Assembly: GCF_029952525.1 (NCBI RefSeq)
Contig: NZ_JASAOF010000030.1
Coordinates: 1-64,000, forward strand
DNA from: Saccharopolyspora ipomoeae
Lineage (GTDB): Bacteria; Actinomycetota; Actinomycetes; Mycobacteriales; Pseudonocardiaceae
DNA length: 64,000 nucleotides
Direction of reading: 5' to 3'
The notes beneath the pieces were generated by a model, which was given only the letters and a program-made list of their open reading frames with translations, made no database searches and had not been told where the DNA came from. Both the position numbers and the translations under genes were made by a program. Below are positions 1,397 through 57,036 of the stretch, one piece after another (within the stretch, counting starts at the first letter, position 1; each line of letters opens with the position of its first letter).

Positions 1397-1419
1397 CCCC
1401 CAACCGGATTGGAACAGCG

Positions 1420-2511: not shown

Positions 2512-2551
2512 AACCCCACCGAAACTCCCGGAAACAGCGAAGGACATCGAC

Positions 2552-3313: not shown

Positions 3314-3359
3314 CCGGCGACCGCAGACCGACCACCCCGCAGGCGGAAGGACGCACACC

Positions 3360-4556
3360 ATGACGGCGACAGAGCACGAGGTTCCCGACTACCCCTTCGC
3401 CCCGCCCGACCGGCTGCGCGCCGACCCCGAGGCGCTGCGGCTGTCCGGTGCGCACCCGGTGCTGCGGGTGCGCCTGCCCTACGGCGGCGAGGGCTGGCTG
3501 GTGACCCGGCACGCGGACGTGCGCACCGTGCTGGCCGACCCCCGGTTCAGCAGGGCGGCCGCGGTCGGCCCGGACGTGCCGCGCACGGTCGCGGCCGGGC
3601 TGCCCGGCACGTCCATGCTCAGCATGGATCCTCCCGAGCACAGCAGGCTGCGGCGCCCGGTGGCCAAGGTGTTCACCGCCCGCCGCGTCGAGGATCTGCG
3701 TCCCCGCGCCCAGGAGGTCCTGGACGGCCTGCTGGATCGCATGATCGAGGCGGGCCCGCCCGCGGACCTGACGGCGGCGCTGACCTGGACGCTGCCGATC
3801 ACCGTGATGTGCGAGCTGCTCGGCGTGCCGGTGGACGACCGGGAGCACTTCACCGCCTGGGTGGACCGGCTGCTGATCTTCTCCGATCCGGCCGAGTCCG
3901 CGCGGGCGCGCGAGCAGCTCAACGAGTACCTGATCGGGCTCATCGCGGAACGCCGCGCGGCACCCGCCGAGGACCTGCTCAGCGCCCTGGTGCAGCTGAC
4001 CGGCGAGGACGGCGGGCTCGACGACGCGGACCTGGTCAGCATCGGGGTCAGCCTGCTGTCGGCGGGGCACGAGGCCACCGCCAACCAGCTCGGCAACTTC
4101 GTCTACACGCTGCTGACGCACCCCGAGGTGTGGCAGCGGATCGTCGCCGACCCGTCGCTGGTGCCGGGCGCGGTCGAGGAGCTGTCCCGGTACGTGTCCA
4201 ACAGCGCCACCGCCGGGTTCACCCGCATCGCCACCGAGGACGTGGAACTCGGCGGCGCGGTTGTGCGCGCCGGGGACGCGGTGGTCTGCGAGCTGGGCGT
4301 GGCCAACCGCGACCCGGACGTATTCGACGAGCCCGACGTGCTCGACATCCACCGCGGGGCCGTCCCGCACGTGACCTTCGGGCACGGGCTGCACCACTGC
4401 CTCGGCGCGCAGCTGGCCCGGATGGAGCTGCGGATCGTGCTGGAGACGCTGTCGGCGCACCTGCCGGGTTTGCGCCTGGCCGAGCCCGCCGAGGAGCTCA
4501 CCTGGCGCGAAGACCGCCTCATCCGCGGGCTGCACGCCCTGCCGGTGACCTGGTGA
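3360..4556 (+). CDS. Cytochrome P450
   Basis: 398-residue soluble bacterial P450. Visible motifs are the I-helix AGHEAT (oxygen activation), the K-helix EELSR (ExxR) and the haem-binding [10 protein letters not shown], with Cys347 as the thiolate ligand. Length and motif spacing match actinomycete CYP105/107-like class I enzymes, which need a separate ferredoxin and reductase; neither is next to it. The ATG has AGGCGGAAGGA upstream. It is in one transcription direction with the NRPS and CAR genes and ends 26 bp before the CAR start. Probable role: hydroxylation or oxidative cross-linking of the cluster's intermediate. Confidence 0.93.
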
Positions 4557-7500: not shown

Positions 7501-7990
7501 CCTGCTGGCCACCGGCATCGCGCCTCGCTCGTTCTACCGGGGCGGGGAGCGCGCGCACTACGACGGGCTGCCGGTCGACTTCACCGCCGCGGCGGTGGCC
7601 GAGCTGGGTGCGCAGATCTCCGAGGGCTTCCGCACGTACCACGCGGTGAACGCCCACGACGACGGGATCTCGCTGGACACCGTCGTGGACTGGCTCGTCG
7701 AGCTCGGGCACCCGATCCAGCGGATCGAGGACTACGACGACTGGTTCACCCGCTTCACGACCGCGCTGCGGGCCCTGCCGGAGCGGCAGCGCGCGCACTC
7801 GCTGCTACCGCTCCGGCACGCCTTCGAGCAGCCGGGCGAAGCGGTCGCCGGTTCGGCGATCCCGGCCGAGCGGTTCGACGAGGCCGTGCGCGCGTCCGGC
7901 ACCGACGTCCCGCACCTGACGGCCGAGCTCATCGGCAAGTACGTCACCGACCTGCGCGCCCTCGACCTGCTGCAGGGCGCCGAGAACTAA
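4583..7990 (+). CDS. car: Carboxylic acid reductase-type A-T-R enzyme
   Basis: 1135-residue three-domain enzyme: an AMP-binding adenylation domain ([11 protein letters not shown] near residue 229), a carrier domain with GGDS (Ser659, the phosphopantetheine site) and a NAD(P)H thioester reductase domain ([12 protein letters not shown] near 750; YxxxK in YANTKWAGE near 920). This is the architecture of Nocardia/Mycobacterium carboxylic acid reductases, which reduce a free acid to an aldehyde via acyl-AMP and enzyme thioester. Its length is close to that family (about 1170). The ATG with GGAAGG upstream is chosen because the A domain starts right after it; the longer open frame overlaps the P450. 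A separate phosphopantetheinyl transferase is required and none is seen here. It could make an aldehyde building block or reduce the NRPS product. Confidence 0.92.
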
Positions 7991-8003
7991 CCGGAGGAAT
8001 CCA

Positions 8004-8363
8004 GTGGACACCGACATCAACGACCTGCTCGACGAGGGCCTGCGCCTGCTGGAGGCGAAGGACTTCGACGGGTTCCGGGCGCGCTGCACGCCCGGCGCGA
8101 GCCTGTGGGAGAACGACGGCAACGGCGAGCAGACCATCGACCAGCGGATGGAGCAGTTCGCGGAGTTCGCCGTGAACGTGGAATCGCTGCACTACGACGT
8201 GTTCCGCCGGTTCGAGCGGGACGGTGAAGTGCTGCAGCAGCACGTGCTGCACGTGCTCGGCACCGACGGGTCGCGCAACCAGGTCCACGCCGCGGTCTAC
8301 TTCCGCTTCGACGGCGACCTGATCGACCGGATCGAGGAGTACGGCTATCAGGTCCCCGCCTGA
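8004..8363 (+). CDS. SnoaL/NTF2-like small protein
   Basis: 119-residue protein with the SnoaL-like cone fold pattern: an N-terminal helix pair (LLDEGLRLLEAKDFDGFRAR), then WENDGNG and alternating strands ending YFRFDGDLIDRIEEYG. Members of this superfamily act as polyketide cyclases, hydroxylases, isomerases, or only bind ligands; the active residues are too variable to assign one here. The GTG start has GGAGG 8 bp upstream and lies 13 bp after the CAR stop, so the two are probably co-translated. Probable accessory enzyme of the biosynthetic cluster. Confidence 0.75.
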   Translation: MDTDINDLLDEGLRLLEAKDFDGFRARCTPGASLWENDGNGEQTIDQRMEQFAEFAVNVESLHYDVFRRFERDGEVLQQHVLHVLGTDGSRNQVHAAVYFRFDGDLIDRIEEYGYQVPA

Positions 8364-8409
8364 CGCCGCACCGCCCCCACCCAGAGCAGTCCGGAAAGGA
8401 CGGTCAGAG

Positions 8410-9414
8410 ATGGCCCGCGTCGCCCGCTTCCACCAGGTCGGCGGACCGGAGGTCCTCCGCGTCGAGGAGGTCCCCACCCCGGAACCCGGCCCGGGGGAGG
8501 TGCTGATCGAGACCAGGGCGCTCGGCCTCAACCGGGCGGAGCTGGAGTTCCGCGCGGGGCGCTACGGGCAACCGTCCCTGCCGTCCGGGATCGGGTTCGA
8601 GGCGGCGGGCGTGGTCCGCGCCGTCGGCGCCGGGGTCGCGCACGTCGCGCCGGGAGCAGCGGTCAGCGTGCTCCCGGCGTTCGGCCCCGGCACCTACGCC
8701 CTGCACGGCGACGCCGTGCTCGCCCCCGCCGACGCCGTGGTCGAGCACCCGCCGAACCTGAGCTGGGAGCAGGCCGCGGCGGTGTGGATGAGCTGCACCA
8801 CCGCCTACGGCGGTCTCGTCGAGACCGCCGGGGTGTCGGCCGGGGACGTGGTGCTGATCCCCGCCGCTTCCAGCGGCGTCGGCCTCGCGGCGATCCAGCT
8901 CTGCACCGCGCTCGGCGCCCGCCCGATCGCGCTCACCCGCACCGGCGGCAAGCGCAGCGCGCTCCGCGGCGCCGGAGCCGCCGAGGTCATCGCGACCGCG
9001 GAGCAGGACGTCGTCGCGGAGGTGCGGCGGCTGACCGGCGGCCGCGGAGCCCGGGTGGCGTTCGACCCGGTCGGCGGCGCGGGCTTCACCGACCTGTCCG
9101 CCGCGCTGGCCCCCGGCGGGATCGCCGTCGTCTACGGCACTCTCGCGGGAGGGACGACGCCGCTACCGGTCGGGGACGTGCTGGCCAAGGGCCTCACCAT
9201 CCGCGGCTACGCCCTGTTCGAGACCACCGGTGACCCGGACCGCCGCACCGCGGCGATCGAGTTCCTCCACGCCCACCTGGCCGACGGCACCCTCGTCCCG
9301 CACATCGGCGCGACCTTCCCCTTCGACCGGATCGCCGACGCCCACACCCACATGGAGTCCACCACCCACCTCGGCAAGATCGTCCTCCGCACCGACCGTC
9401 AAGCACGGCCGTGA
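8410..9414 (+). CDS. Zinc-independent quinone oxidoreductase / MDR-family dehydrogenase
   Basis: 334-residue medium-chain dehydrogenase/reductase of the NADPH:quinone reductase (zeta-crystallin) branch. It starts MARVARFHQVGGPEVL, has the GroES-like N-terminal half and a Rossmann half with IPAASSGVGLAAIQL around residue 155. The cysteines and histidines that bind zinc in alcohol dehydrogenases are not evident. These enzymes reduce quinones or enones with NADPH. It is the last gene of the plus-strand biosynthetic run; the next gene faces it from the opposite strand with only 11 bp between the stops. It could serve the cluster as an enoyl/quinone reductase or be a detoxification enzyme. Confidence 0.88.
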   Translation: MARVARFHQVGGPEVLRVEEVPTPEPGPGEVLIETRALGLNRAELEFRAGRYGQPSLPSGIGFEAAGVVRAVGAGVAHVAPGAAVSVLPAFGPGTYALHGDAVLAPADAVVEHPPNLSWEQAAAVWMSCTTAYGGLVETAGVSAGDVVLIPAASSGVGLAAIQLCTALGARPIALTRTGGKRSALRGAGAAEVIATAEQDVVAEVRRLTGGRGARVAFDPVGGAGFTDLSAALAPGGIAVVYGTLAGGTTPLPVGDVLAKGLTIRGYALFETTGDPDRRTAAIEFLHAHLADGTLVPHIGATFPFDRIADAHTHMESTTHLGKIVLRTDRQARP

Positions 9415-25600: not shown

Positions 25601-26608
25601 TCAGCCGCGGACCGGCCGCCGCGTCGGGAAGAGCTCGTCGAGGGGGATGCCCGCGGACAGCCCGAAGAGCAGGCGCAGCCGTGCCTTCGGCGCGGAAAGC
25701 GTGCTCGCGAAGTGCAAGCCGGATCGGCGGAGGTCCATTTCGGACCCCCCGCCGCTGTACGTCTCGCGCAGCAGTGCGCCGTCGGGACAACGACTGGTGA
25801 CGACGACGGGAGTGCCCGCCCGGGCGAGCCGAACGAGTGCTGCGCCCAGGGACGGCGAGACGTGTCCGGCGCCGAGGGCGGCGACCACGACGCCGTCGAC
25901 GGTGCCCGGGTCGGACGTCAGGGCGTCGGCAGCGGAGCCGTCGACGCCGGTCGCCGCGTGGACGAGGCCGATCCGCGCGGTCGGCGGGTTCGAGCGGGGC
26001 AGGCGGTCGGTTCCCGGCGCGGGCCCCAGGAGCAGTTCGACCTCGTCCTCCGCGACGAAGCCGACGGGTCCCGCCGCGGGGGAGGCGAACGCGGCGACGC
26101 GGGCGCTGTGCATCTTGGTCACGAGCCTGGCGACGTGCACCTCGTCCTGGAAGACCACGACCGGCCCGTACGGCGCGAGCGAGGGATCGGCCGCGGCGAC
26201 GAGGGCCGCGCGCACGTTCGCCGGACCGTCGGGCCCGGAGTGGTGCGGCGAGCGCATCGCGCCCGTGATCACCACGGGAACCCTCGGTTCGACGAGCAGC
26301 GCCAGCGCGTAGGCGGTCTCCTCCAGCGTGTCCGTGCCGTGGGTGATGACGACGCCGTCGCGGCCCGCCGCGATCTCCTCGTCGACCGCGGTCGCGAGCG
26401 TCCAGAGGTCGTCGACCGTCAGCTTCCGCGAGGACCGGCCGAGGACGTCGCGCGGTACGACCTCGATCCGCTCGGGGAGATCGGGCGCGGGAGGCGTCAG
26501 CGCGGCGACGCCGACGTGGTCCTGGTTCCCGGTCGTGGGCGGTGCCACGGCGATGGTGCCGCCGGTCGCGAGCAGACCGATCGAGCGGGTGGTCTCCGGC
26601 GAACCCAT
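25601..26608 (-). CDS. L-asparaginase
   Basis: 335-residue asparaginase/glutaminase-fold enzyme. Both threonine motifs are present: LLATGGTIA at the N-terminus (nucleophile Thr) and VVITHGTDTLEETAYAL (Thr-Asp with the downstream Lys region). It hydrolyses asparagine to aspartate and ammonia; no signal peptide is seen, so it is likely cytoplasmic. The ATG at 26608 overlaps the TGA of the upstream IclR gene (ATGA), so the two are translationally coupled. The gene is therefore controlled with the IclR that faces the orotate-type operon, linking it to aspartate and ammonia release. Relatives acting on other beta-amides cannot be excluded. Confidence 0.9.
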   Translation of the reverse strand: MGSPETTRSIGLLATGGTIAVAPPTTGNQDHVGVAALTPPAPDLPERIEVVPRDVLGRSSRKLTVDDLWTLATAVDEEIAAGRDGVVITHGTDTLEETAYALALLVEPRVPVVITGAMRSPHHSGPDGPANVRAALVAAADPSLAPYGPVVVFQDEVHVARLVTKMHSARVAAFASPAAGPVGFVAEDEVELLLGPAPGTDRLPRSNPPTARIGLVHAATGVDGSAADALTSDPGTVDGVVVAALGAGHVSPSLGAALVRLARAGTPVVVTSRCPDGALLRETYSGGGSEMDLRRSGLHFASTLSAPKARLRLLFGLSAGIPLDELFPTRRPVRG

Positions 26609-27387
26609 CAGGACTGGGCGTCGGGGTTGCCGAGCTCCGCGGACATGCGAGCGGCGGCCCGCAGCGCCGCGCCCGTGAGCCGCTCGCGCACCTCGGCGTC
26701 GGCCACGCGCGAACCCGGTGCGGTGATCGTGACGCTCGACAGCACGTGGTCGTCGCCGTCCCGGATCGGCGCCGACACGGCCCACGCGTCCGGGTCGAGC
26801 TCGTTCTCGCACACCGCGTAGCCCTTCTCGCGGACCTGCTTGAGCACGTGCATCACGTCATCGACGTGATGCGGCGTTCCAGCGGTGTACTCGGTGAGAT
26901 CGGCTTGTTCGAGCAGGGCTCGCACCATCTCCTCGTCGAGGTGGGCGAGTATCGCGCGGCTCGACGCGGCGGCGTGCAGCGGCATCTCCTGCCCGATGCG
27001 GACGAACAGCCGCAGCGCGTGCTCGGCCTCCACGATGGACACGCAGACCGGGGCGTCGCCGATGAGCTCGGTGAGGAACACCGTCTCGCCGGTCTCGTCG
27101 GCGGCTTCGGCGAGCGCCGCGGGCGGCTTGACGAGGCGGGCGCCGTGCGAGCCACCGCGGCCGGCGAGCGCCCGGGCGGCGCGGCCGACGAAATACCGCT
27201 TGGTGACGGGGGAGCGGCGGAGGTAGTCGGCCTGGTCGAGCGTGGTGAGGATGCGGTGCAGGCTGCCGAGCGGGATGTCGAGCTCGTCGTGCAGCTCTTG
27301 CAGGGTCAGGCCGGACCGCGCCGCACCGACCGCGTTGAGCACCTCCACGCTGCGAACGATGACCTCGAGTGGGCGTGCGGTGGTCAT
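26608..27387 (-). CDS. IclR family transcriptional regulator (orotate-type operon)
   Basis: 259-residue IclR protein: the winged HTH SGLTLQELHDELDIPLGSLHRILTTL (outline, residues 25-50), then the effector-binding domain with VCVSIVEAEHALRLFVRIGQ and a conserved C-terminal DDVMHVLKQVREKGYAVCENELDPDAWAVSAPI region (outline). It is co-translated with the asparaginase gene downstream and divergent from the operon at 27564-36189. A textbook IclR palindrome, TGGAAA-N4-TTTCCA, lies in the intergenic region and a near copy lies before the dihydroorotate dehydrogenase gene. It probably controls asparaginase and the whole ureide pathway. Activator or repressor is not decided. Confidence 0.92.
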   Translation of the reverse strand: MTTARPLEVIVRSVEVLNAVGAARSGLTLQELHDELDIPLGSLHRILTTLDQADYLRRSPVTKRYFVGRAARALAGRGGSHGARLVKPPAALAEAADETGETVFLTELIGDAPVCVSIVEAEHALRLFVRIGQEMPLHAAASSRAILAHLDEEMVRALLEQADLTEYTAGTPHHVDDVMHVLKQVREKGYAVCENELDPDAWAVSAPIRDGDDHVLSSVTITAPGSRVADAEVRERLTGAALRAAARMSAELGNPDAQS

Positions 27388-27495
27388 CGGCGTGCTCTCC
27401 TCCCGTGCTCGTCGTGCGTCGTCGGCAACCCTAGCTGAGCCGCGACCGGGGTTGACAACGTCGCGAACGGTCGTTCAAGCTCAGCCTAACCGAAC

Positions 27496-27511
27496 TGGAA
27501 ACATCTTTCCA
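27496..27511. promoter_or_regulatory. IclR operator 1
   Basis: TGGAAACATCTTTCCA is a perfect 6-bp dyad with a 4-bp centre. It closely resembles the known E. coli IclR consensus (TGGAAAT-N-ATTTCCA). It lies between the divergent IclR and OCD-family genes, 52 bp before the latter. A TTGACA box at 27452-27457 lies upstream. Confidence 0.75.
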
Positions 27512-27563
27512 ATATGAGTGTCGGTGGGGTGGCGGGCGGAACTCGGCCGCCGGGAAGGAAGGC

Positions 27564-28436
27564 ATGCCGCGGATCCTGACCGACCACGACGTCGACGCGC
27601 TGCTGCCGCCCCCGCGAGCGCTCGCGGACGTGCGCACGGCGTTCGAGCTGCTCGGCGCAGGGGAGGCGTGGGACGAACCGCGCCGCCGCAGCACCGGCGG
27701 GAACGTCACGCTCAACGTCATGTCCGCGATCGCGCCGACGCTCGACGCGGTGGCCGTGAAGTCGTACCCGGTGGTGCGCACCGGCACGAATCGCGCGAGC
27801 GCGATCGCGGTGGTCGTCTACACCTGCGAGACGGTTTGCCTGCTGGGAACCGGTTTTCAGGCACCGGCGCAGGTGAGCGCGCTCGTCGACGTGCTGCCGA
27901 AGCTGCGCCGAGTGCTGGTCGTCGGACGCGACGCGACGCGGGCAGCCGCCACCGCGGGCGGGCTGCGGCTGGCGCATCCCCGGCTGGACGTCGAGGCCGG
28001 GACGAGCCCGGAGCGCGCGGTGCCGCGCGCCGACGTCGTGATCACCGCGACGGGCGCGGTCGAGCCGCTCTTCGACGGCGGACTGCTGCGCGCGGGCACG
28101 CACGTCAACGCGGTCGGCAGCAATCACGCCGCACGCAGGGAGCTCGACCGGTCGGCGTTCCAGCGGGCGGCGCACGTCGCCGTCGACTCGGCGGCGGTCG
28201 CCGCGCTCGAATGCGGAGATCTGCTCGCGAACGGGCTCGATCCCGCCGAGGCGACCGAGTTCGCCGACATCGTCGCGGGCCGGGTTCCCGGCAGGGGAGA
28301 CGGGGACGACATCACGGTCTTCGAATCGCACGGGCTCGCCATCCAGGACCTGGTGTGCGCGGTCGGCGTGCTCGACGGAGCGCGGGAACCGGGCGCAGCC
28401 GCGGAAGTCCCAGGAGAATCAGGAGAAGACGCATGA
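27564..28436 (+). CDS. Ornithine cyclodeaminase/mu-crystallin family protein with internal deletion
   Basis: 290-residue member of the OCD/mu-crystallin family (ketimine or iminosuccinate reductases, alanine dehydrogenase, ornithine cyclodeaminase). Visible are the VAVKSYP lysine segment, the Rossmann motif LLGTGFQAPAQ, NAVGSNHAARRELD, and the DDITVFESHGLAIQD C-terminal signature. Relative to the family there is an in-frame gap of roughly 35-40 residues between AIAVVVY and CLLGTGFQA, which removes the LxDG...LTxxRTGA block containing the substrate-binding arginine. Family proteins are usually 310-340 residues. It may be inactive, structural or altered in function. It is the first gene of the operon, and its stop overlaps the next ATG. 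Confidence 0.82.
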   Translation: MPRILTDHDVDALLPPPRALADVRTAFELLGAGEAWDEPRRRSTGGNVTLNVMSAIAPTLDAVAVKSYPVVRTGTNRASAIAVVVYTCETVCLLGTGFQAPAQVSALVDVLPKLRRVLVVGRDATRAAATAGGLRLAHPRLDVEAGTSPERAVPRADVVITATGAVEPLFDGGLLRAGTHVNAVGSNHAARRELDRSAFQRAAHVAVDSAAVAALECGDLLANGLDPAEATEFADIVAGRVPGRGDGDDITVFESHGLAIQDLVCAVGVLDGAREPGAAAEVPGESGEDA

Positions 28437-29851
28437 GGTTGCACATCACGGGTGGCCGGTTGGTCACCCCGGCAGGCGTGCTCGACGCGGACCTGCTGTG
28501 CGTGGACGGCAAGATCGCGGCGATCCTCGATCGCGGCGCCGAGGTCGAGGCCGACGAGCGGTACGACGCCGGGGGCAAGCTCGTGTTCCCCGGGTTCATC
28601 GACCCGCACGTGCACTCCCGCGACCCCGGGGCGAGTCACAAGGAGGACTTCGACCACTCGACGCGCGGTGCGCTCGTCGGTGGCGTGACCACCGTGCTGG
28701 AGATGCCGAACGCGATCCCGCCGGTCGACTCCGCGGAGGTGTTCCAGGAGCGCCGTCGGCAGCACGAACAGCACGCGTGGACGGACTTCGGGCTGTGGGG
28801 CCTCGCGCTGGGCGAGACGAACATCGACCAGATCGGCCCGCTGTTCGAGGCCGGCGCGGTCGCGGTGAAGCTGTTCTGGGGTTACGCGCTGCACAAGGAG
28901 ACGCGCTCGCTGGTCTACAACGTCGGCGACGAGAAGCCCGAGAACCTGCTGCCGCCACCGCCGAACGGCCAGGTGCTGCAGCTGTTCGCCGAGGTCGCCA
29001 AGCACGGTGGTGTGCTGGCGGCGCACTGCGAGGACAAGGACGTGCTCGCGACCAGCCAGGAGGCGCTCGGCCACCCCATCGAGTCCTACGAGGACCTCCT
29101 CGCCGCGCGGCCCGCGGTCGCCGAGGCCACGACGATCTCCATCGCCTCGCAGTTCGCGAAAGCCACCGGATGCCGGTTCCACGTCGTGCACCTCGCGTCG
29201 GAGATGGGCCTCGACGCCGTGCGCACGGCGCAGCGCAACGGCGTGTCGGTCAGCGCGGAGACCTGCCCGCAGTACCTGACGCTGACCGACGCCGACTACC
29301 CGAAGGTCGGCCCGGTGATGAAGGTGTACCCGCCGGTGCGCGGGCAGGGCGACCAGGACGCGCTGTGGGAGGGCTTCAACGACGGCGCCATCTCGTCGGT
29401 CGGCTCGGACCACGCGCCGCACACCGTCGAGGAGAAGGCGCGCGGCTTCGAAACCCAGCCCGCGGGCGCGGTCGGCTGCGAGACCTTCGGCCCCGTGCTG
29501 CTGGACGCGTTGGCGCGCGGCAGGACCACCGCGGAACGGCTCGCGGCGGTGGCCTCGACGGACACCGCGAAGTTCTACGGGCTCTACCCGCGCAAGGGCG
29601 TCATCCGGCCGGGCAGCGACGCCGACCTGGTCATCGTCGACCCCGAACTGCGCCGGACGGTGCGCAACGACGAGCTGATCGCGAAGCAGCCGGTGAGCCC
29701 GTGGAACGGCTTCGAGCTGGTCGGCGGCCCCGTCGCAACGGTGCTGGGCGGCCAGGTCGTCGTGCGCGATCGGGAGATCGTCGCCGAGCGGCGCGGCCGC
29801 TTCGTCGCAGCCGACCACTCCGCGCACCGCGCCGATCGGCAGACGGCATGA
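28433..29851 (+). CDS. Dihydroorotase/allantoinase-type cyclic amidohydrolase
   Basis: 472-residue metal-dependent cyclic amidase. The binuclear metal site is complete: His59-x-His61 in DPHVHSRDPG, Lys146 (carbamylation site) in VKLFWG, His198 in AAHCED, His253 in VVHLAS, and Asp326 in GSDHAPH. Arg63 after HxH and Asn93 in LEMPNAIPP are the positions that bind the substrate carboxylate in dihydroorotases; dihydropyrimidinases lack them. It should therefore open dihydroorotate (to N-carbamoyl-aspartate) or an allantoin/carboxylated-hydantoin analogue. It overlaps the preceding and following genes by ATGA, so stoichiometric co-translation is likely. The biosynthetic pyrC normally sits with pyrB/carA, which are absent here. 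Confidence 0.9.
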   Translation: MRLHITGGRLVTPAGVLDADLLCVDGKIAAILDRGAEVEADERYDAGGKLVFPGFIDPHVHSRDPGASHKEDFDHSTRGALVGGVTTVLEMPNAIPPVDSAEVFQERRRQHEQHAWTDFGLWGLALGETNIDQIGPLFEAGAVAVKLFWGYALHKETRSLVYNVGDEKPENLLPPPPNGQVLQLFAEVAKHGGVLAAHCEDKDVLATSQEALGHPIESYEDLLAARPAVAEATTISIASQFAKATGCRFHVVHLASEMGLDAVRTAQRNGVSVSAETCPQYLTLTDADYPKVGPVMKVYPPVRGQGDQDALWEGFNDGAISSVGSDHAPHTVEEKARGFETQPAGAVGCETFGPVLLDALARGRTTAERLAAVASTDTAKFYGLYPRKGVIRPGSDADLVIVDPELRRTVRNDELIAKQPVSPWNGFELVGGPVATVLGGQVVVRDREIVAERRGRFVAADHSAHRADRQTA

Positions 29852-31194
29852 GTTCCGTCGAGGAACTCACCTCGGGCGTGCGCGCGGCGATCGAGCAGGC
29901 GTGCGCACTCGCGCGGGAACCCCTGTCCGACGACGTGCGCCGGCACGCGGCGCACGTCGTCGCCGACGCGGTCGGCGTGAGCATCGCCGGTGGTCGGACC
30001 GCCGAGATGACGCGCCTGCGCGGAGCCGACGACGAGCTCGGCGGGCCCCCACCGGCGGGTGGCTCGACCGTGCTGGCCGCGGGCGCCGAGCTCGCGTCGG
30101 CCGAGCACGCCGCGTTCCACAACGCGACCGCGGGCAGTTTCCTCGAACTCGACGAGGGCACCCGTCCGACGGGCCACCCGGGCATGCACCTCGTGCCCGC
30201 GGCGCTCGCCGTGGCCGAGGCGACCCATCGGTCCGGGGCGGCGCTGCTCGGCGCGGTCGTCGCGGGTTACGAGGTGAGTTCCAGGCTGCTCGCGGTGTTC
30301 CGGCTGCGACCACCGACGCATCCGCACGGCCACCTCGCCGGGATGGGCGGTGCCGTGGCCGTGGCGCTGCTGCTCGACGAGGACCCGCTGGCGGCCGCGG
30401 CGATCGCGGCGACGACGCCGGTCGTGCCCGTCTGGAACGCCTGCTACGTCGGCGCGACCGCGCGCAACACGGCGATGGGGCTGGCCGCGCAGACGGCCGT
30501 GCGCTCGATCCGGTTGCTGCGCGCGGGTTTCACCGGTTCCATCGAATCGATCCCCGCGCTGTTCGGAGGGCTGACCGGCCAGCCGGTGGACGATGCGGCG
30601 TTGCGGGAGCCGGTGGAGCACGCGCGGCCGCGGATCCTGCGCAACTACTTCAAGCGGCACAGCGCGTGCGCGCTGACGCACGGCGCGATCGACGCCGTGC
30701 TGTCGTTGCCGGCTGTACCCGTGGCGGACATCGAGTCGGTCGAGATCCACACCGTCGGCAACAACCTCAAGCTGGACAGGCAGCCGGCTCCGAACGACCT
30801 GTCGGCGCGGTTCTCGTTGCCCTACGCGGTCGCGGCGGCGCTGACGCATCGCGCGTCGACGGTCGAGACCTTCGACTACGACCCCGATGTGGCGGGGCTG
30901 GCCGCGAAGGTCGCGGTCAGCGCGAAGCCGGAGTTCGACCGGCGCTGGCCGGACCACGCGCCGACGGAGGTCGTCGTCCGCACCTCGGCCGGGACGTTGT
31001 CGGCGGTGGTGGACGACCCGCGCGGGCACCATCACGACCCGCTGTCGTCCGACGAGCTGCGCGCGAAGTTCGTCGGCCTCGTCGGTGGCGCGCAGGTCGA
31101 TGAGACCGCGCTGTGGCAGCGGATTCTCGCGCTCCCCGATGTCGACGACTGCTCCGAGGTGCTCCGTCCGCTGCGCGCTGTGTCACCCGTGTAG
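29848..31194 (+). CDS. MmgE/PrpD family protein
   Basis: 448-residue member of the MmgE/PrpD superfamily (2-methylcitrate dehydratase, cis-aconitate decarboxylase, iminodisuccinate epimerase). Typical segments: ADAVGVSIAGG near the N-terminus, HNATAGSFLELDEG, HPGMHLVPAALAVAE, and KRHSACALTHGAIDAVLSL in the middle. Family activity ranges from dehydration to epimerisation at carbons next to carboxylates, so the reaction is not predictable. Between an amidohydrolase and an orotate-reductase-like gene, racemisation or epimerisation of a ring or carbamoyl intermediate is a reasonable guess. Start ATG overlaps the upstream stop. Confidence 0.87.
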   Translation: MSSVEELTSGVRAAIEQACALAREPLSDDVRRHAAHVVADAVGVSIAGGRTAEMTRLRGADDELGGPPPAGGSTVLAAGAELASAEHAAFHNATAGSFLELDEGTRPTGHPGMHLVPAALAVAEATHRSGAALLGAVVAGYEVSSRLLAVFRLRPPTHPHGHLAGMGGAVAVALLLDEDPLAAAAIAATTPVVPVWNACYVGATARNTAMGLAAQTAVRSIRLLRAGFTGSIESIPALFGGLTGQPVDDAALREPVEHARPRILRNYFKRHSACALTHGAIDAVLSLPAVPVADIESVEIHTVGNNLKLDRQPAPNDLSARFSLPYAVAAALTHRASTVETFDYDPDVAGLAAKVAVSAKPEFDRRWPDHAPTEVVVRTSAGTLSAVVDDPRGHHHDPLSSDELRAKFVGLVGGAQVDETALWQRILALPDVDDCSEVLRPLRAVSPV

Positions 31195-31265
31195 CGGGCG
31201 TGTTTCGGCCTCGCGCGAGCTCTTGACAGCCGTGGTGTGCCGGGGAGAAGCTCCCGTTCTCGTAG

Positions 31266-31281
31266 TGAAAAGAGGTTTCCA
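31266..31281. promoter_or_regulatory. IclR operator 2 (one mismatch)
   Basis: TGAAAAGAGGTTTCCA matches operator 1 at 27496 in both arms except one base, with the same 4-bp centre. It overlaps the ribosome site and ends 2 bp before the TTG start of the dihydroorotate dehydrogenase gene. A TTGACA box at 31223-31228 suggests an internal promoter. Confidence 0.6.
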
Positions 31282-31283
31282 CT

Positions 31284-32261
31284 TTGAAGGCGACAGCATT
31301 CGTCGACGAGACGCGGAGCCCGGCGACCACGGGCGTCCCACCGGTGGACCTGAGCGTCGGGCTCGGTGACCTCACGCTGGCGAACCCGGTGATGCCGGCC
31401 TCCGGCTGCTTCGGTCCCGAACTCGGCGGCCTCACGCGGGTCGAGGCGCTCGGTGCCGTCGTCACGAAGACCGTCTTCGTGCACGCCAGGCCGGGAAACC
31501 CGACCCACCGGATCACCGAGCTGCCGCACGGGATGCTCAACAGCGTCGGCATTCCGAGCGCCGGGGTGGTGCCGTTCCGCGAGGCGGGGCTCGGCGGGTA
31601 CGCGGGGCTCGGCGCGCCGGTCGTGGTGAGCGTCGGCGGACTGTCCGCGCAGGAGTACTGGGACGTCGTCGACGAGCTGTCGGAGTCGCCGCACGCCGCG
31701 TTCGAGGTGAACGTCTCCTGCCCCAACCTCGAACGCGGAGGTGCGACGCTCGACACCGACCCCCGCGCGATGGGCGAGGTCGTGGCCGGAGTGGTCGCGC
31801 GCAGCGCGAAACCCGTGTTCGTCAAGCTGAGCCCGCAGCTGCAGACGATCGGTGACGCGGTGCGAGCGGCCCGCGACGCCGGCGCGACCGCCGTGACGGT
31901 GTGCAACAGCTTCCCCGGCATGGCCGTCGACGCCCAGCAGCGGAGTTCCGCGCTGGGCAACGAGACCGGCGGCGTGTCGGGCCCGATCGTCAAGCCGCTC
32001 GCGCTGCGGCTCGTGTGGCTCGCCGCGCGCGCCGCCGACATCCCCGTCATCGGGTGCGGGGGGATCCGATCGGCGAGCGACGTCGCGGAGTTCCTCGTCG
32101 CGGGGGCCACCGCCGTCCAGATCGGAACCGCCACGTTCGCGCGGCCCCACCTGATGGCCCAGATCGTCGAGGAGCTCCCGGCACTGGCTGCGCGGCTCGG
32201 TGTCGCCTGCCTCGCGGAACTCATCGGCACCCTCTCCACTCAATCGGAGGACCAGCGATGA
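31284..32261 (+). CDS. pyrD: Class 1 dihydroorotate dehydrogenase (PyrD-B type)
   Basis: 325-residue FMN barrel enzyme. The active-site loop is EVNVSCPNLERGG with Cys146 as catalytic base, which marks class 1; class 2 enzymes have serine. IGCGGIRSASDVAEFLVAGATAVQIGT (outline) is the C-terminal FMN-phosphate site. With the PyrK-like gene at 35353 it would form a class 1B heterotetramer that exchanges electrons with NAD. Actinomycetes normally make pyrimidines with a class 2 quinone-linked enzyme, so this copy is probably catabolic and could reduce orotate to dihydroorotate. The TTG start has GAGG 8 nt upstream, overlapped by an IclR-type palindrome. Its stop overlaps the transporter ATG. Confidence 0.9.
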   Translation: MKATAFVDETRSPATTGVPPVDLSVGLGDLTLANPVMPASGCFGPELGGLTRVEALGAVVTKTVFVHARPGNPTHRITELPHGMLNSVGIPSAGVVPFREAGLGGYAGLGAPVVVSVGGLSAQEYWDVVDELSESPHAAFEVNVSCPNLERGGATLDTDPRAMGEVVAGVVARSAKPVFVKLSPQLQTIGDAVRAARDAGATAVTVCNSFPGMAVDAQQRSSALGNETGGVSGPIVKPLALRLVWLAARAADIPVIGCGGIRSASDVAEFLVAGATAVQIGTATFARPHLMAQIVEELPALAARLGVACLAELIGTLSTQSEDQR

Positions 32262-33565
32262 CCGAAGACGACGAGCAGAGAATGAGAGCGGCCGAGGAGG
32301 TTTCCGCCATCGGCGCGGAGGACGGACAGCCGCAGGAGGTCACGCCGTACGGCAAGAAGGCGGTCTTCGGCGCCACGGTCGGCTACGCGATGGACGGCTA
32401 CGATCTCCAGATCCTCGGCTTCGCCCTGCCCGCGATCACCGCGAGCCTCGGGCTCACCGATACCGAGGGCGGACTGCTCGCCACGATCACCCTGATCGGC
32501 ACGGTGACGGGCGCGATGTTCTTCGGCGCGCTCGCCGACCGCTTCGGCCGGGTGCGCGTCCTGACCTACTCGATCCTGCTGTTCGCGATCTTCACCGGGC
32601 TCACGGCGCTGTCGCAGGGATTCGTGGAGCTCGCGGTGTTCCGGTTCATCGCAGGCATGGGCATCGGCGGTGAGTTCGGCATCGGCATGGCGCTGGCCGC
32701 GGAAGCGTTCCCCGCCCTCAAGCGCGCACGTGCGACGTCGTGGGTCGGCGTCGGTTTCCAGCTCGGCGTCCTGCTCGCGGCGCTGATCTCGGCCCCGGTG
32801 ATCGCGTGGTGGGGCTGGCAGGGGCTGTTCGTGATCGGTGTCTTCCCCGCGCTCGTCGCGATCGCGCTGCGCATGCGGCTGGAGGAGCCGGAGGCGTTCG
32901 TCCGGTCCCGGGCGAGGGTCGAGGCGGGCGAGAAGCAGGAGAACCCGTACCGGCTGCTCGTCGCCGACGCGAGGACGATCCGCACGAGCCTCGGCATCGT
33001 GATCATCTGCTCGGTGCAGAACTTCGGCTACTACGGCATTCTCACGTGGCTGCCGACGTACCTCACCAAGCAGCTGGGGCTGAGCACCACCAACTCCGGG
33101 CTCTGGACGGCCGCCACCGTGATCGGCATGATCTCCGGGATCATGATCTTCGGCCAGCTGGCCGACCGGATCGGTCGCCGCCGCTCGTTCTGGATCTTCC
33201 AGGCCGGCGCGTTCATCTCGCTGTTCGCCTACAGCCAGCTCACCTCGCCGATGGCCGTGCTCATCGGCGGTGCCGTGATGGGCGTGTTCGCCAACGGCAT
33301 GCTCGGCGGCTACGGAGCGATCATCGCCGAGAACTACCCGACCGCGGCACGGGCGACGGCCCAGAACGTCCTCTTCGGAATCGGGCGTGGTGTCGGCGGG
33401 TTCGCTCCTCTCGTCGTGGCGCTCGTCGCCGGTTGGCAGGGGTTCGGCGCGGCGCTGGGCTTCCTCGCGCTGATCTACATCGTCGACATGGTGGCGATGC
33501 TGCTCATCCCGGAACGCGGTGGCAAGCGGCTCGACGGCGCGGTCGCGGACGGCGCTGTCGCGTGA
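32258..33565 (+). CDS. MFS transporter (aromatic acid/ureide:H+ symporter-like)
   Basis: 435-residue 12-helix major facilitator. The YAMDGYDLQILGFALPAI first helix (with the DGYD motif) and GALADRFGRVRVL loop are those of the aromatic acid:H+ symporter group (PcaK/BenK), and a second DRIGRRRS loop lies mid-protein. A cytoplasmic N-terminal extension of about 40 residues precedes helix 1. The ATG overlaps the dihydroorotate dehydrogenase stop, so it belongs to the ureide operon and most likely imports its substrate; orotate is a planar aromatic-like acid and would fit. Specificity is inferred from context only. Confidence 0.88.
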   Translation: MTEDDEQRMRAAEEVSAIGAEDGQPQEVTPYGKKAVFGATVGYAMDGYDLQILGFALPAITASLGLTDTEGGLLATITLIGTVTGAMFFGALADRFGRVRVLTYSILLFAIFTGLTALSQGFVELAVFRFIAGMGIGGEFGIGMALAAEAFPALKRARATSWVGVGFQLGVLLAALISAPVIAWWGWQGLFVIGVFPALVAIALRMRLEEPEAFVRSRARVEAGEKQENPYRLLVADARTIRTSLGIVIICSVQNFGYYGILTWLPTYLTKQLGLSTTNSGLWTAATVIGMISGIMIFGQLADRIGRRRSFWIFQAGAFISLFAYSQLTSPMAVLIGGAVMGVFANGMLGGYGAIIAENYPTAARATAQNVLFGIGRGVGGFAPLVVALVAGWQGFGAALGFLALIYIVDMVAMLLIPERGGKRLDGAVADGAVA

Positions 33566-33626
33566 CGGCGCGGACGCGTTGCGGGCTGACCGTTTCCGAC
33601 GCACGACTGCTGGAAAGCGAGGAATA

Positions 33627-34103
33627 GTGCCGAACACGACGACACCGACGTCTGCGCTGCGCGCGCTCGGCGTCGAGGCGGACACCTACGGTCCGACGGT
33701 CAACACCGGAGGCTCACCGCGCCACGTCGAGGTGCTCGGACGCGCTTTGGCGGAGGAGCTGCGCGCGTCGAACGCCGAAACGCTGGTCATCTGGAGCACG
33801 CCCGATGAGGCGGTGCTGGCCCACGCGGTCGCGCTGCAGCTCGGTGCGACCGTCCGGAGGGCGTCCGAAGTGGAGGGAATCCTGACGCTCGACGAGCCGA
33901 TCGCGGAGGGCCAGCGCGCCGCGCTCGTCGCGACCCGGTGGGAAGGTCGCTGGCTGGCGAAGCTGCGCGAGTTCGTCGTCGGCAGCGGTGGCGAGCTCGT
34001 GGCGGCCGCGGCCGTCGTCGGTTCCGAGGCGCTCGACGACGTCACCGGCCTCCCCACGGCGGCGCTCGTGCAGGCGCACGAGGCGGAGGAACTGCGCCGA
34101 TGA
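33627..34103 (+). CDS. Phosphoribosyltransferase-like protein lacking the PRPP loop
   Basis: 158 residues with the strand-helix order of a type I phosphoribosyltransferase (orotate PRTase-like): ETLVIWSTPDEAVLAHAVALQLG, then GILTLDEPIAEGQRAALVATRW, then GGELVAAAAVVG (outlines). Where real PRTases carry the acidic PRPP motif (two acidic residues plus TTG), this protein has LVATRWEGRWLAKL (residues 100-113), so PRPP binding and catalysis are not expected. The family assignment is by pattern only and is uncertain. GTG start with GCGAGG upstream; its stop overlaps the start of the M20 hydrolase gene. A ligand-binding or subunit role for orotate is possible. Confidence 0.6.
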   Translation: MPNTTTPTSALRALGVEADTYGPTVNTGGSPRHVEVLGRALAEELRASNAETLVIWSTPDEAVLAHAVALQLGATVRRASEVEGILTLDEPIAEGQRAALVATRWEGRWLAKLREFVVGSGGELVAAAAVVGSEALDDVTGLPTAALVQAHEAEELRR

Positions 34104-35356
34104 CGTCTCTCCGCGCGGACGGCGGGCGGTTGCGCGACCTGCTCGACGGGTTCGCCGCGCTCTCCGAGAGCGACAGCGGGCCGGGCGTGACCAGGCTGGC
34201 CTACACGGCCCTCGAACGTCGTGCCCATGCGCTCTTCTCCGAGACGATGTCCGCGCTCGGCCTGAGCACGTGGGTCGACGCGGCGGGCAACACGCTCGCG
34301 GAACGGCCGGGCACCGGTGCCGGCCTCCCGGCGATCGGCACCGGGTCGCATCTGGACAGCGTCCCCAACGCGGGCTCCTACGACGGGATCGTCGGGGTGT
34401 GCGCGGCGATGGAAGTGGCGCGGCTGCTGGTCGAGCACGACATCGCGCACCGGCACCCGCTGCGGTTCGTCGTGTTCGCGGCCGAGGAGGGCGCGCGCTT
34501 CGGTCAGGCGTGCACCGGCAGCAGGATCGCGGCCGGACTCACCGGTTCCGACGACCTGCCGTCGAAGGTGGACGCCGACGGCGTCACGCTCGCCGACGCG
34601 ATGGCCGGTGTCGGCCTCGACCCGTCGACCGTCGAGGACGCGCGGTGGGAACCGGCCGACTGGGCCGCTTTCGTGGAACTCCACATCGAGCAGGGCAGCG
34701 TCCTGGAGACCGAGGGGGTCCGGCTGGGCGTCGTGGATTCGATCTCCGGAAGCACGAGGCTGCGGCTGGATCTCCGCGGCCGCGCGACGCACAGCGGCGG
34801 TACGCCGATGCACCTGCGCGCTGACGCGATGGCCGCGGCGGCCGAGATCGTGCTCGCGGTCGAGGCGCTGGGCGAGGACGAGCGCAACGTCGGGACCAGG
34901 ACGACCGTCGGCAGGCTCGACGTCGCACCGGGTTCGATGACGACGATCGCGGGCAGCGCCTCGCTGTGGGTCGACGTTCGGGGCACGGACGCGGGACGGC
35001 AGCGGGACACCGCCGCCGAGATCGTGCGACGGGCGAAGCGGATCTGCGACGAGCGGGGGATCGGATTCTGCCACGAGCAGCTCGCCGACACCCCACCGGT
35101 GGAACTGCGCGCGGGCATCCGCGACGAGCTCGCCGCGTCGTGCCGAGCGGTCGGGGTCGAACCCCGGGTGCTGACCAGCGGCGCCAGTCACGACGCGCAG
35201 CAGGTCGACCGGGTGGCTCCGGCGGGCATGCTCTTCGTGCCGAGCGAGGCGGGCATCAGCCACGACCCGGCGGAGCGCACCGACATCGACGACATCGCGC
35301 TCGGCACGACGGCGCTGGTCGCCGGGCTGCTGCGCCTGGACGGGAGCCTGCCGTGA
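34100..35356 (+). CDS. M20 family N-carbamoyl-amino acid hydrolase (ureidosuccinase-like)
   Basis: 418-residue M20/hydantoinase-carbamoylase family amidohydrolase. Metal ligands visible: His84 in GTGSHLDSV, Asp95 in GSYDGIVGV, Glu129-Glu130 in FAAEEGARF and a later His in ELHIEQG. The lid/dimerisation domain has GRATHSGGTPM. The enzymes cleave N-carbamoyl amino acids to the free amino acid, CO2 and ammonia. After the dihydroorotase-type enzyme, the natural substrate would be N-carbamoyl-L-aspartate, giving aspartate. It could alternatively be allantoate or beta-ureidopropionate. ATG overlaps the upstream stop and its own stop overlaps the PyrK-like GTG. Confidence 0.9.
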   Translation: MTSLRADGGRLRDLLDGFAALSESDSGPGVTRLAYTALERRAHALFSETMSALGLSTWVDAAGNTLAERPGTGAGLPAIGTGSHLDSVPNAGSYDGIVGVCAAMEVARLLVEHDIAHRHPLRFVVFAAEEGARFGQACTGSRIAAGLTGSDDLPSKVDADGVTLADAMAGVGLDPSTVEDARWEPADWAAFVELHIEQGSVLETEGVRLGVVDSISGSTRLRLDLRGRATHSGGTPMHLRADAMAAAAEIVLAVEALGEDERNVGTRTTVGRLDVAPGSMTTIAGSASLWVDVRGTDAGRQRDTAAEIVRRAKRICDERGIGFCHEQLADTPPVELRAGIRDELAASCRAVGVEPRVLTSGASHDAQQVDRVAPAGMLFVPSEAGISHDPAERTDIDDIALGTTALVAGLLRLDGSLP

Positions 35357-36189
35357 TCGCATCCGCTGAGCTGAACGTCCTCGGCGGTGAGCTGCCGGCG
35401 CCGGTGTCCGAGCGCGCGCCGGTGCTCACCAACCGGGCGCTGTCCGACCGGTACCGGGTGCTGCGGCTCCGGTCCGAGACGATCGCGCGCCGCGCGCGGG
35501 CGGGGCAGTTCGCGATGGTCGCGCCGGACGCGCGACCGGGCACGGTGCTGCCGCGACCGATGGCGATCTACGCGCGGGACGTCGAGCGAGGAGTCGTGGA
35601 GATCGTGTACGGCGTCGTCGGCGACGGCACGAGGTCGCTGGCCGCCATCGCCGAGGGCGAGCACGTCGTCGTGACCGGACCGCTGGGGCACGGGTTCACC
35701 ATCACCGACGAGGCGCGGCACGTCCTGCTCATCGGGCGCGGTGTGGGAACGTGCGCGATGACGAGCGTCGCGCAGGACCTCGCCGGGACGTCGGTGCGCG
35801 TGTCGGCCGTGCTCAGCGGTCGCGACCGCACGGCGGTGCTCGGCGAGGACGTGCTCCGCCGTTGCGGGGCCGAGCTGCTCCTCGTGACCGACGCGGACGG
35901 CACCAGCCGGGTTTCCGCCGTGCGCGAGCGCCTGCACCGCGCGTTCGACGACGACCCGCCGCAGCTGGTTCTGACCAGCGGGTCCGAGCGGCTGACCCGG
36001 TTGGCCGCGCAGCTCGCCGCGCGATGGCGCGCCGGCGCGCAGGTCTCGATCGAGGCGCACATGGCCTGCGGGCTCGGCTACTGCCACGGCTGCGCCGCCG
36101 GAGACGGCGACGGCACCCGCGAGGCGCCGCTCGTCTGCCGCGACGGCCCGGTGTTCGGCATCGGCGCTGATCCCGACCCGAGGCCGTGA
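35353..36189 (+). CDS. pyrK: Dihydroorotate dehydrogenase electron-transfer subunit (PyrK-like)
   Basis: 278-residue FAD/[2Fe-2S] protein of the PyrK group. The FAD-binding RPMAIY lies at residues 68-73, the NAD-binding domain starts at LLIGRGVGTCA, and four cysteines (239, 244, 247 and 262) in ACGLGYCHGC...LVCRDGPVF match the PyrK cluster signature exactly. It shuttles electrons between NAD(H) and the FMN of PyrD. Its presence with a class 1 PyrD four genes upstream argues strongly for a working PyrDK complex. GTG start overlaps the upstream TGA. The two subunit genes are not adjacent, which is unusual. It is the last gene of the operon. Confidence 0.92.
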   Translation: MIASAELNVLGGELPAPVSERAPVLTNRALSDRYRVLRLRSETIARRARAGQFAMVAPDARPGTVLPRPMAIYARDVERGVVEIVYGVVGDGTRSLAAIAEGEHVVVTGPLGHGFTITDEARHVLLIGRGVGTCAMTSVAQDLAGTSVRVSAVLSGRDRTAVLGEDVLRRCGAELLLVTDADGTSRVSAVRERLHRAFDDDPPQLVLTSGSERLTRLAAQLAARWRAGAQVSIEAHMACGLGYCHGCAAGDGDGTREAPLVCRDGPVFGIGADPDPRP

Positions 36190-57020: not shown

Positions 57021-57036
57021 TGACAACCAGTTGCCA
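57021..57036. promoter_or_regulatory. LacI-type operator 1
   Basis: TGACAACCAGTTGCCA is a near-palindrome with CAAC-N2-GTTG arms, in the divergent region between manD and the lacI-type gene. GTTGCC recurs 4 bp after it. It matches the operator before uxaC (58093) in the CAAC/GTTG arms. Confidence 0.6.

Follow-up and report, generated by a model that had tools for sequence, protein, structure and literature searches.

The 64,000-nucleotide stretch of the Saccharopolyspora ipomoeae genome analyzed here in full length (contig NZ_JASAOF010000030.1, hereafter the window) carries, at positions 25601 to 36189, a gene cluster in which a dihydroorotate dehydrogenase (DHODH) is encoded together with a cyclic amidohydrolase and an M20-family hydrolase, and the question raised by this locus is whether these pyrimidine-type enzymes serve synthesis or, as an earlier note made from the sequence had claimed, run the pathway backwards from orotate to aspartate. 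Conversion of orotate via dihydroorotate and N-carbamoyl-aspartate to aspartate is considered the best reading of the cluster, and a probable one, because the genome holds separate biosynthetic genes, the DHODH falls into an M20-linked set, the amidohydrolase is interchanged with PyrC-like dihydroorotases in related clusters, and it carries the Arg/Asn/His pattern of a dihydroorotase. The features of the cluster, by position in the window, are as follows, with the evidence for each in parentheses.

25601 to 26608, minus strand: asparaginase-family hydrolase, 335 amino acids, accessory (PF00710/PF17763)
26608 to 27387, minus strand: IclR-family regulator, 259 amino acids (PF01614/PF09339)
27496 to 27511, no strand: palindrome TGGAAACATCTTTCCA, probable IclR-binding operator for the first block (motif count, conservation in relatives)
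27564 to 28436, plus strand: OCD/mu-crystallin-like dehydrogenase, 290 amino acids, accessory, possibly inactive here (PF02423, alignment)
28433 to 29851, plus strand: cyclic amidohydrolase, 472 amino acids, proposed dihydroorotase (TIGR00857; R63, N93, D326, H330)
29848 to 31194, plus strand: MmgE/PrpD-family protein, 448 amino acids, accessory (PF03972/PF19305; motifs conserved in its subclade)
31266 to 31281, no strand: palindrome TGAAAAGAGGTTTCCA, probable IclR-binding operator for the second block (motif count, conservation in relatives)
31284 to 32261, plus strand: class 1B DHODH catalytic subunit, 325 amino acids, TTG start (NF005574)
32258 to 33565, plus strand: major facilitator superfamily (MFS) transporter, 435 amino acids, proposed orotate importer (TIGR00895, under cutoff; Variovorax likeness)
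33627 to 34103, plus strand: phosphoribosyltransferase (PRT)-fold protein, 158 amino acids, phosphoribosyl pyrophosphate (PRPP) loop not recognizable (predicted model and Foldseek)
34100 to 35356, plus strand: M20 N-carbamoyl-amino-acid hydrolase, 418 amino acids (TIGR01879)
35353 to 36189, plus strand: PyrK-like FAD/[2Fe-2S] subunit, 278 amino acids (PF10418; solved PyrK chain 5ksw_B)

All eight genes of the earlier note are present as same-strand open frames (27564 to 36189, plus strand), and the ATGA/GTGA overlaps that it had ascribed to most of them, each of four bases, occur at five of the seven junctions, the other two being gaps of 89 bases before the DHODH gene, which contains an operator-like palindrome, and of 61 bases before the PRT-like gene. 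Pfam matches follow the order OCD/mu-crystallin, cyclic amidohydrolase, MmgE/PrpD, DHO_dh, MFS, no hit, M20, and DHODB Fe-S. The proposed extent of the operon had to be widened, since the unit also takes in iclR and the asparaginase gene, which are divergent from an OCD-amidohydrolase-MmgE block and a DHODH-MFS-PRT-like-M20-PyrK block. In the mechanism that we propose, this inducible operon would use orotate as a source of nitrogen and carbon: the MFS protein would import orotate, the class 1B PyrD-PyrK enzyme would reduce it to dihydroorotate with NADH, the amidohydrolase would open the dihydroorotate ring to give N-carbamoyl-aspartate, and the M20 enzyme would split the latter into aspartate, CO2, and NH3. 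We infer the substrate, the direction, and the uptake step from the family assignments and comparisons detailed below.

The first of these enzymes had been described in the earlier note as a class 1 DHODH with Cys146 in an SCPN motif, an assignment that alignment and model scores bear out. The window DHODH exceeds the cutoff of NF005574 (299.8 bits versus 269) and falls under that of TIGR01037 (258.9 versus 270); Cys146, located in the segment NVSCPNL, and the nearby Asn143 and Asn148 are invariant in a 10-sequence alignment, and the best solved relatives (5ue9, 5ksw, and 1ep1) are PyrD chains of class B enzymes, the last being titled as the PyrD subunit of DHODH B. The PyrK-type FAD/2Fe-2S subunit likewise stands, as the product matches PF10418, contains an FAD/NAD domain and a [2Fe-2S] motif, and aligns with the solved chain 5ksw_B, four cysteines included; the PyrK equivalog models score under their cutoffs (best, 105.8 versus 219). 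By its catalytic cysteine, PyrD model, and PyrK partner, the pair is thus predicted to form a class 1B DHODH.

Whether such an enzyme would be needed for synthesis depends on what else the genome encodes. As the earlier note had stated, no pyrB, carAB, or pyrF gene lies near the cluster; the biosynthetic set is located on another contig (C11) in the order pyrR-pyrB-pyrC-carA-carB-pyrF, in which pyrB, pyrC, and pyrF were assigned by family scores and pyrR, carA, and carB were read from sequence. No class 2 DHODH over cutoff was found in the genome, and the other DHODH that it holds is a divergent, class-1-like protein also encoded on C11 (G000:C11:412814-413830; L035 6812-7834), with an NF005574 score of 173.7 (cutoff, 269). 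The search for a separate class 2 pyrD suggested in the earlier note was, in that sense, answered by an enzyme of another kind. DHODHs of the C11 type occur in 25 of 100 family genomes (E <= 1e-60) and class 2 enzymes over cutoff in 75 of 100, and because the two genome sets are exactly complementary across this sample, the C11 DHODH is likely biosynthetic, probably representing an unrecognized type that stands in for class 2 pyrD. The statement that actinomycetes normally use class 2 enzymes is, moreover, too simple, given that this genome and 25 of the 100 family genomes lack one over cutoff and that a class-1-type match at E <= 1e-50 occurs in 137 of the 394 genomes examined across the class. 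A further DHO_dh match, on contig C12, was rejected as a DHODH; read from its sequence, it is a different flavoprotein resembling a nitronate monooxygenase.

The window cluster does not, judged on these genes, appear to be the biosynthetic pyrimidine operon, the absence of any other pyrD or pyrC, which the earlier note had named as fatal to its proposal, being contradicted by the pyrC and the second DHODH on C11. That it might be a spare or salvage biosynthetic set, as the presence of PyrD/PyrK and a dihydroorotase relative and the lack of a class 2 DHODH over cutoff could suggest, is also highly improbable: the genome already has a second DHODH and a biosynthetic operon that includes pyrC, the M20 enzyme would destroy a biosynthetic intermediate, and the operator-like site is found at the window cluster only. 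In addition, matches to the window DHODH (E <= 1e-30) occur in 12 of 297 genomes of the family, 10 of them with a cluster, and of the seven cluster genomes within the 100-genome sample, six have a class 2 enzyme and that of the window has the C11 type.

The ring-opening step is proposed to be a function of the amidohydrolase, which exceeds the cutoff of the subfamily model TIGR00857 (292.2 bits versus 279.05) and scores under cutoff with the dihydroorotase equivalog models among the best 25 of its 56 matches. The dihydroorotase-type protein with Arg63 and Asn93 that the earlier note had described carries these residues as stated, together with D326 and H330. In the M. jannaschii dihydroorotase with bound substrate, the alpha-carboxylate of carbamoyl-aspartate is described as touching Arg60, Asn89, and His306, with Asp302 at the carbamoyl group (PMC12809426); R63, N93, H330, and D326 correspond to these residues by motif position rather than by alignment. 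The same R/N/H/D pattern is common to the pyrC product of this genome and to two cluster dihydroorotases, and the two allantoinases and the dihydropyrimidinase of the genome differ at these positions. We propose that the amidohydrolase represents a non-orthologous dihydroorotase. Assignment as an allantoinase (AllB) was rejected, as its TIGR03178 score (324.4) lies under the cutoff of 357.85 and its residues are unlike those of both allantoinases of the genome; allantoin catabolism was set aside on these family scores and residues, as was reductive uracil catabolism. The latter, in the form of a Pyd-type uracil or thymine pathway with an unusual dehydrogenase, would follow the same order of chemistry (reduction, ring opening, and decarbamoylation) with overlapping amidohydrolase and M20 families. 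It is nonetheless very unlikely, since the dehydrogenase scores 299.8 bits with PyrD versus 97.5 with PreA and is partnered by PyrK, not PreT, the carboxylate-binding triad of the amidohydrolase is lacking in the dihydropyrimidinase of the genome, and the gene for that dihydropyrimidinase sits elsewhere (TIGR02033, 566 versus 393).

For the M20 protein, the carbamoyl-amino acid hydrolase assignment was upheld by scores over cutoff with both TIGR01879 (380.2 versus 204) and NF006771 (406.9 versus 399); its best solved relative is the N-carbamoyl-L-amino acid hydrolase 3n5f, and the M20 motifs are common to its relatives. Of the aromatic-acid-type MFS importer of the earlier note, the MFS assignment stands, and the TIGR00895 score for aromatic acid/H+ symport (312.4 bits) does not reach the cutoff of 418.55. 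Support for the core route comes from a Variovorax cluster (L149), annotated in the order MFS-PyrK-PyrD-M20-PyrC-regulator-OPRT (OPRT, orotate phosphoribosyltransferase), whose PyrC passes TIGR00856 (433.6 versus a cutoff of 292.95) and whose MFS protein is 54% identical to that of the window (DHODH, 44%; PyrK, 33%; M20, 31%).

Clusters of this kind were examined among relatives. Among the 12 family matches mentioned above, seven belong to a cluster of the window type and three to a second type, and two (G106, a short stretch, and G016, with 37% identity) stand without other cluster genes in the 19.9 kb read. The co-occurrence that the earlier note had proposed to look for was recovered in six other family genomes, in which iclR and the same eight genes stand in the same order; three named records show this order too, one being one of the six genomes and another (L070) having the OCD and amidohydrolase genes in pieces. 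In this last locus, from Pseudonocardia sp. CNS-004, the OCD and amidohydrolase similarity is fragmented (6100 to 8430), as if frames were broken or draft errors were present. The second-type clusters (L029 to L031) contain genes for a nucleoside phosphorylase, an ABC transporter, DHODH, IclR, a PRT-like protein, M20, PyrK, and a PyrC-like dihydroorotase, the last of which, in L029, exceeds the TIGR00857 cutoff (350.5); the L029 phosphorylase was likewise covered by a family scan. Two clusters, from Streptomyces (L071) and Nonomuraea (L074), share with the window the DHODH (60 to 64% identity), MFS (58 to 62%), M20 (61 to 64%), and PyrK (55 to 56%) proteins and carry, with no window-type amidohydrolase, a gene 57% identical to the L029 PyrC-like dihydroorotase. 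In Pseudonocardia acaciae (L075), the window amidohydrolase is kept (80%) and the OCD and MmgE genes are absent. On the evidence of this swap and this gene content, the amidohydrolase would most simply take the place of the dihydroorotase, with OCD, MmgE, and asparaginase as an optional trio.

Beyond the family, clusters were found in Actinomycetota, Chloroflexota, Bacillota, and Proteobacteria, and also on plasmids, for which a scan yielded 84 records with identities below 60% throughout. In a census of the best 80 of at least 559 relatives from a scan of named genomes, PyrK is encoded within 7 kb of the DHODH at 79 of 80 loci, M20 at 56, a dihydroorotase-type protein at 45, and an OPRT- or PRT-like protein at 40, with M20 and dihydroorotase both present at 36. 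A DHODH tree of 124 rows, built by a quick method, places the window enzyme in a 37-row set (support, 100), 27 rows of which are M20-linked (L024/L069 and L029/L082 each representing the same genome twice); the remaining 10 rows consist of eight from Cryobacterium, L078, and L090, the last near a contig end. A separate supported set holds 28 class 1B rows found broadly in the class, placed by sequence alone. The proteobacterial M20-linked rows form a third set (42 rows; support, 97) that is not joined to that of the window, so a single origin of catabolic use does not follow from the tree. In the Cryobacterium loci (L085 to L089, L092, L095, and L130), DHODH lies beside PyrK and no M20 or dihydroorotase gene was found near.

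On plasmids of Klebsiella, a PyrK-PyrD-M20-PyrC arrangement occurs in 53 records at >=99% identity (for example L151 9154-13302, Klebsiella pneumoniae pBckp091-1); the isolation sources given for the best 20 of the 53 are, among others, raw and mastitis milk, blood, and urine. In pBckp091-1, from a milk isolate, the cluster lies approximately 1.4 kb from lacYZ, with a gene-table gap between. Orotic acid is described as a natural milk component (PMC12111157). A nucleoside hydrolase or phosphorylase gene adjoins some clusters (L074 8948-9880 and L029 9020-9721), and a riboside, perhaps orotidine, may feed some of these pathways.

A number of observations weigh against the orotate route. For the amidohydrolase, the allantoinase model yields a higher score than TIGR00857, identity to the two cluster dihydroorotases that were compared is only 28%, and relatives at 53 to 63% identity pair with MmgE in clusters lacking a DHODH and have the same R/N/H residues, so the carboxylate-binding residues do not prove dihydroorotate to be the substrate. 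The substitute dihydroorotase was family-scanned only in L029, where its equivalog score (484 of 538) is under cutoff. As the 80 census loci are the best-scoring ones of a larger number, they are not a fair sample, and 24 of them are without M20 near the DHODH, some being cut by contig ends; the eight Cryobacterium rows without M20 fall within the DHODH set of the window itself. The best equivalog match of the M20 protein, below cutoff, is the N-carbamoyl-glutamate hydrolase ErtE. Finally, OCD, MmgE, and asparaginase have no place in the proposed route, and amidohydrolase and MmgE genes are adjacent in clusters without DHODH.

These accessory genes call for separate consideration. The asparaginase gene, whose start codon overlaps the stop codon of iclR, is the sole PF00710 match in the genome, and orthologs (67 to 77%) adjoin iclR in all nine distinct clusters having both OCD and MmgE (the window and eight relatives); no such ortholog was detected in L075 (20.9 kb), a locus that is also without OCD and MmgE. 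The OCD protein matches PF02423 (113.7 versus 24) and shows, at approximately 27831, an in-frame gap of 35 residues that are present in seven distinct full-length relatives; the missing residues include an RT..A (RTAA) segment, which we take to be the OCD substrate segment. Both domain models are matched by the MmgE/PrpD protein, for which solved relatives are only remote (best, 57.8 bits), and no reaction can be transferred from these because Arg replaces the Lys of solved members in the KPxHxG-like segment. Identification as an iminodisuccinate-type epimerase or a cis-aconitate-type enzyme was rejected, the similarity being remote and one segment differing. As an optional trio, OCD, MmgE, and asparaginase might act on aspartate-type by-products or a related ureide.

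An alternative is, then, that the substrate is another aspartate-related cyclic compound, a carboxylated ureide or imide such as a substituted orotate or a hydantoin with an acetate side chain, with asparaginase, OCD, and MmgE as central as the DHODH. We regard this as unlikely, if deserving of more weight than the other rivals. In its favor, amidohydrolase-MmgE pairs without DHODH occur with asparaginase in two genomes of the same family (G192 and G259) and with PRT-like and M20 genes in four genomes from a different family, all nine clusters mentioned contain the complete trio, and a further locus of the same genome again pairs amidohydrolase with MmgE. Against it, L075 is without the trio and has the rest, L071 and L074 encode a PyrC-like dihydroorotase where the window has the amidohydrolase, the class 1B signature is kept in the DHODH, the MFS protein resembles that of the Variovorax cluster with its TIGR00856 PyrC, and the 35-residue segment is gone from the window OCD. 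We retain the orotate route, whose core is supported by comparison; its restriction to this actinomycete is not, and OCD, MmgE, asparaginase, and the PRT-like protein remain outside its accounting.

Because the amidohydrolase-MmgE pair also stands without DHODH, the cluster looks like two modules brought under one operator. Loci with such pairs vary in their surroundings. In G192 and G259 (L171/L172), amidohydrolase, MmgE, and asparaginase genes lie in a row with no DHODH nearby, and the surrounding genes, by eye, are of CaiB, enoyl-CoA hydratase, FAH, and alcohol and aldehyde dehydrogenase-like types. In the four genomes of another actinomycete family (L177 to L180), genes for a PRT-like protein, M20 (57%), an amidohydrolase, and MmgE are consecutive and no DHODH gene accompanies them; the flanks of L177/L178 contain luciferase-like monooxygenases, a DUF1028 protein, more amidohydrolases, and a peptide-type ABC transporter. 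The locus in the same genome as the window (L039; G000:C4:78000-94000) contains an amidohydrolase, two MmgE/PrpD proteins, IclR, MFS, and, by eye, an Asp/Glu-type racemase.

The operator in question is suggested by two palindromes, one (TGGAAACATCTTTCCA) in the iclR-OCD intergenic region and the other (TGAAAAGAGGTTTCCA) in the 89-base gap that precedes the DHODH gene. With up to two mismatches and both strands counted, the window contains seven matches versus 0.30 expected, a number reached in none of 100 shuffles; two of the seven represent a single imperfect site within the OCD gene, and another is located at 57021. The exact motif TGRAAA-N4-TTTYCA occurs at only the two cluster sites in the 6.63-Mb genome, and a reversed-motif control gave no match anywhere in it. 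Among 10 distinct window-type clusters (the window, L023 to L028, L070, L072, and L075, with L069 being the same stretch as L024), the first palindrome is kept in all 10 (<=1 mismatch) and the second in nine (<=2 mismatches), being absent from L023; iclR is divergent in L023 to L028 too. IclR presumably binds at both palindromes and would repress both transcription blocks through them until released by a putative inducer. The nearest NCBIfam model of the regulator is BhcR (124.7 bits, below the cutoff of 350); assignment to the beta-hydroxyaspartate cycle was rejected, as IclR and OCD match the BhcR and BhcD models far below cutoff.

The remaining protein of the second block, the PRT-like protein, has no Pfam or NCBIfam match. 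An AlphaFold model from a 16-row alignment (pLDDT, 94.5) gave 273 Foldseek matches at E <= 0.001 (best E, 5e-9), the best 50 of which comprise phosphoribosyltransferases (some of them orotate enzymes) and unnamed project or hypothetical proteins, and the model accordingly predicts a PRT fold. Type I phosphoribosyltransferases bind PRPP through a loop composed of an acidic pair and a TTG-like segment; this loop was not recognizable in the PRT-like protein in the 16-row alignment (A2) as judged by eye. A longer relative in L177 passes the Pfam Pribosyltran cutoff (29.4 versus 26.3). The gene immediately precedes M20 in both the window and the window-type relatives, the OPRT gene of Variovorax being farther from M20; OPRT-annotated genes adjoin such clusters in Variovorax and Paracoccus. 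We read the predicted structure as a phosphoribosyltransferase fold turned to another use, and the protein may serve as a helper or sensor that binds orotate or an intermediate of the route. At the window edge (8 to 4556), apart from the cluster, a condensation-domain protein and a nearby cytochrome P450 possibly mark the end of a nonribosomal peptide cluster.

A broader scenario is offered tentatively, as a possibility that we would not expect to hold in full: aerobic orotate assimilation would span at least Actinomycetota, Chloroflexota, and Proteobacteria, with a frequent PRT-fold companion that, non-catalytic in actinomycetes, would be an orotate-binding sensor or subunit beside M20; in Pseudonocardiaceae it would have merged with an aspartate-ureide module (amidohydrolase, MmgE, OCD, and asparaginase) that supplies the dihydroorotase and maybe racemizes or recovers N-carbamoyl-aspartate. 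Accounts of pyrimidine breakdown usually start from uracil or thymine. If true, the orotate route would explain second copies of class 1B DHODH and dihydroorotase in genomes with a biosynthetic set, would caution against annotating such copies as pyrimidine biosynthesis, as in some public records, and would supply concrete genes for tests of orotate turnover, the PRT-like protein providing a test case of a fold conserved without a recognizable PRPP site. Among the matches listed in open-license PubMed Central (PMC) literature, no description of genes for orotate catabolism was found; to the earlier note, such an operon in an aerobic actinomycete had seemed undescribed. The clusters are not peculiar to this actinomycete.

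The chemistry itself is already known; what stands out most about the clusters is how widely the family is spread and its PRT-like companion. In the anaerobe Clostridium oroticum, the classical orotate fermentation was described by enzymology and consists of the reactions proposed here. The two systems would share a class 1B PyrD-PyrK acting on orotate, the C. oroticum enzyme being listed as class 1B in PMC10395836. In the window, by contrast, the genes form a defined operon, the actinomycete host is presumably aerobic, and IclR, MFS, a different candidate dihydroorotase, a PRT-fold protein, and three additional genes are present. With the de novo pyrBC-carAB-pyrF and pyrD genes the cluster shares DHODH and dihydroorotase chemistry, from which it departs by adding an M20 carbamoylase and lacking pyrB, carAB, and pyrF. 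Ergothioneine utilization is represented by the models ErtE (362.9) and ErtD (256.1), which are among the better matches of the M20 protein and the amidohydrolase, respectively, at scores far below the cutoffs of 520 and 650. Reductive pyrimidine degradation by PydA/PreAT, PydB, and PydC, as outlined in PMC7332683, resembles the proposed route in its sequence of reduction, cyclic amidohydrolase, and decarbamoylation, whereas the window has PyrD with PyrK, a carboxylate-binding amidohydrolase, and a carbamoyl-amino-acid-type M20. Family X1 of the DHODH superfamily, as described by Barba et al. 2013 (PMC4016543), adjoins hydantoinase and M20 genes and stands near PreA/PydA and purine genes; the window likewise has a DHODH relative beside hydantoinase/M20-type genes, but its enzyme fits PyrD 1B with PyrK, as judged by family fit rather than by the X1 tree.

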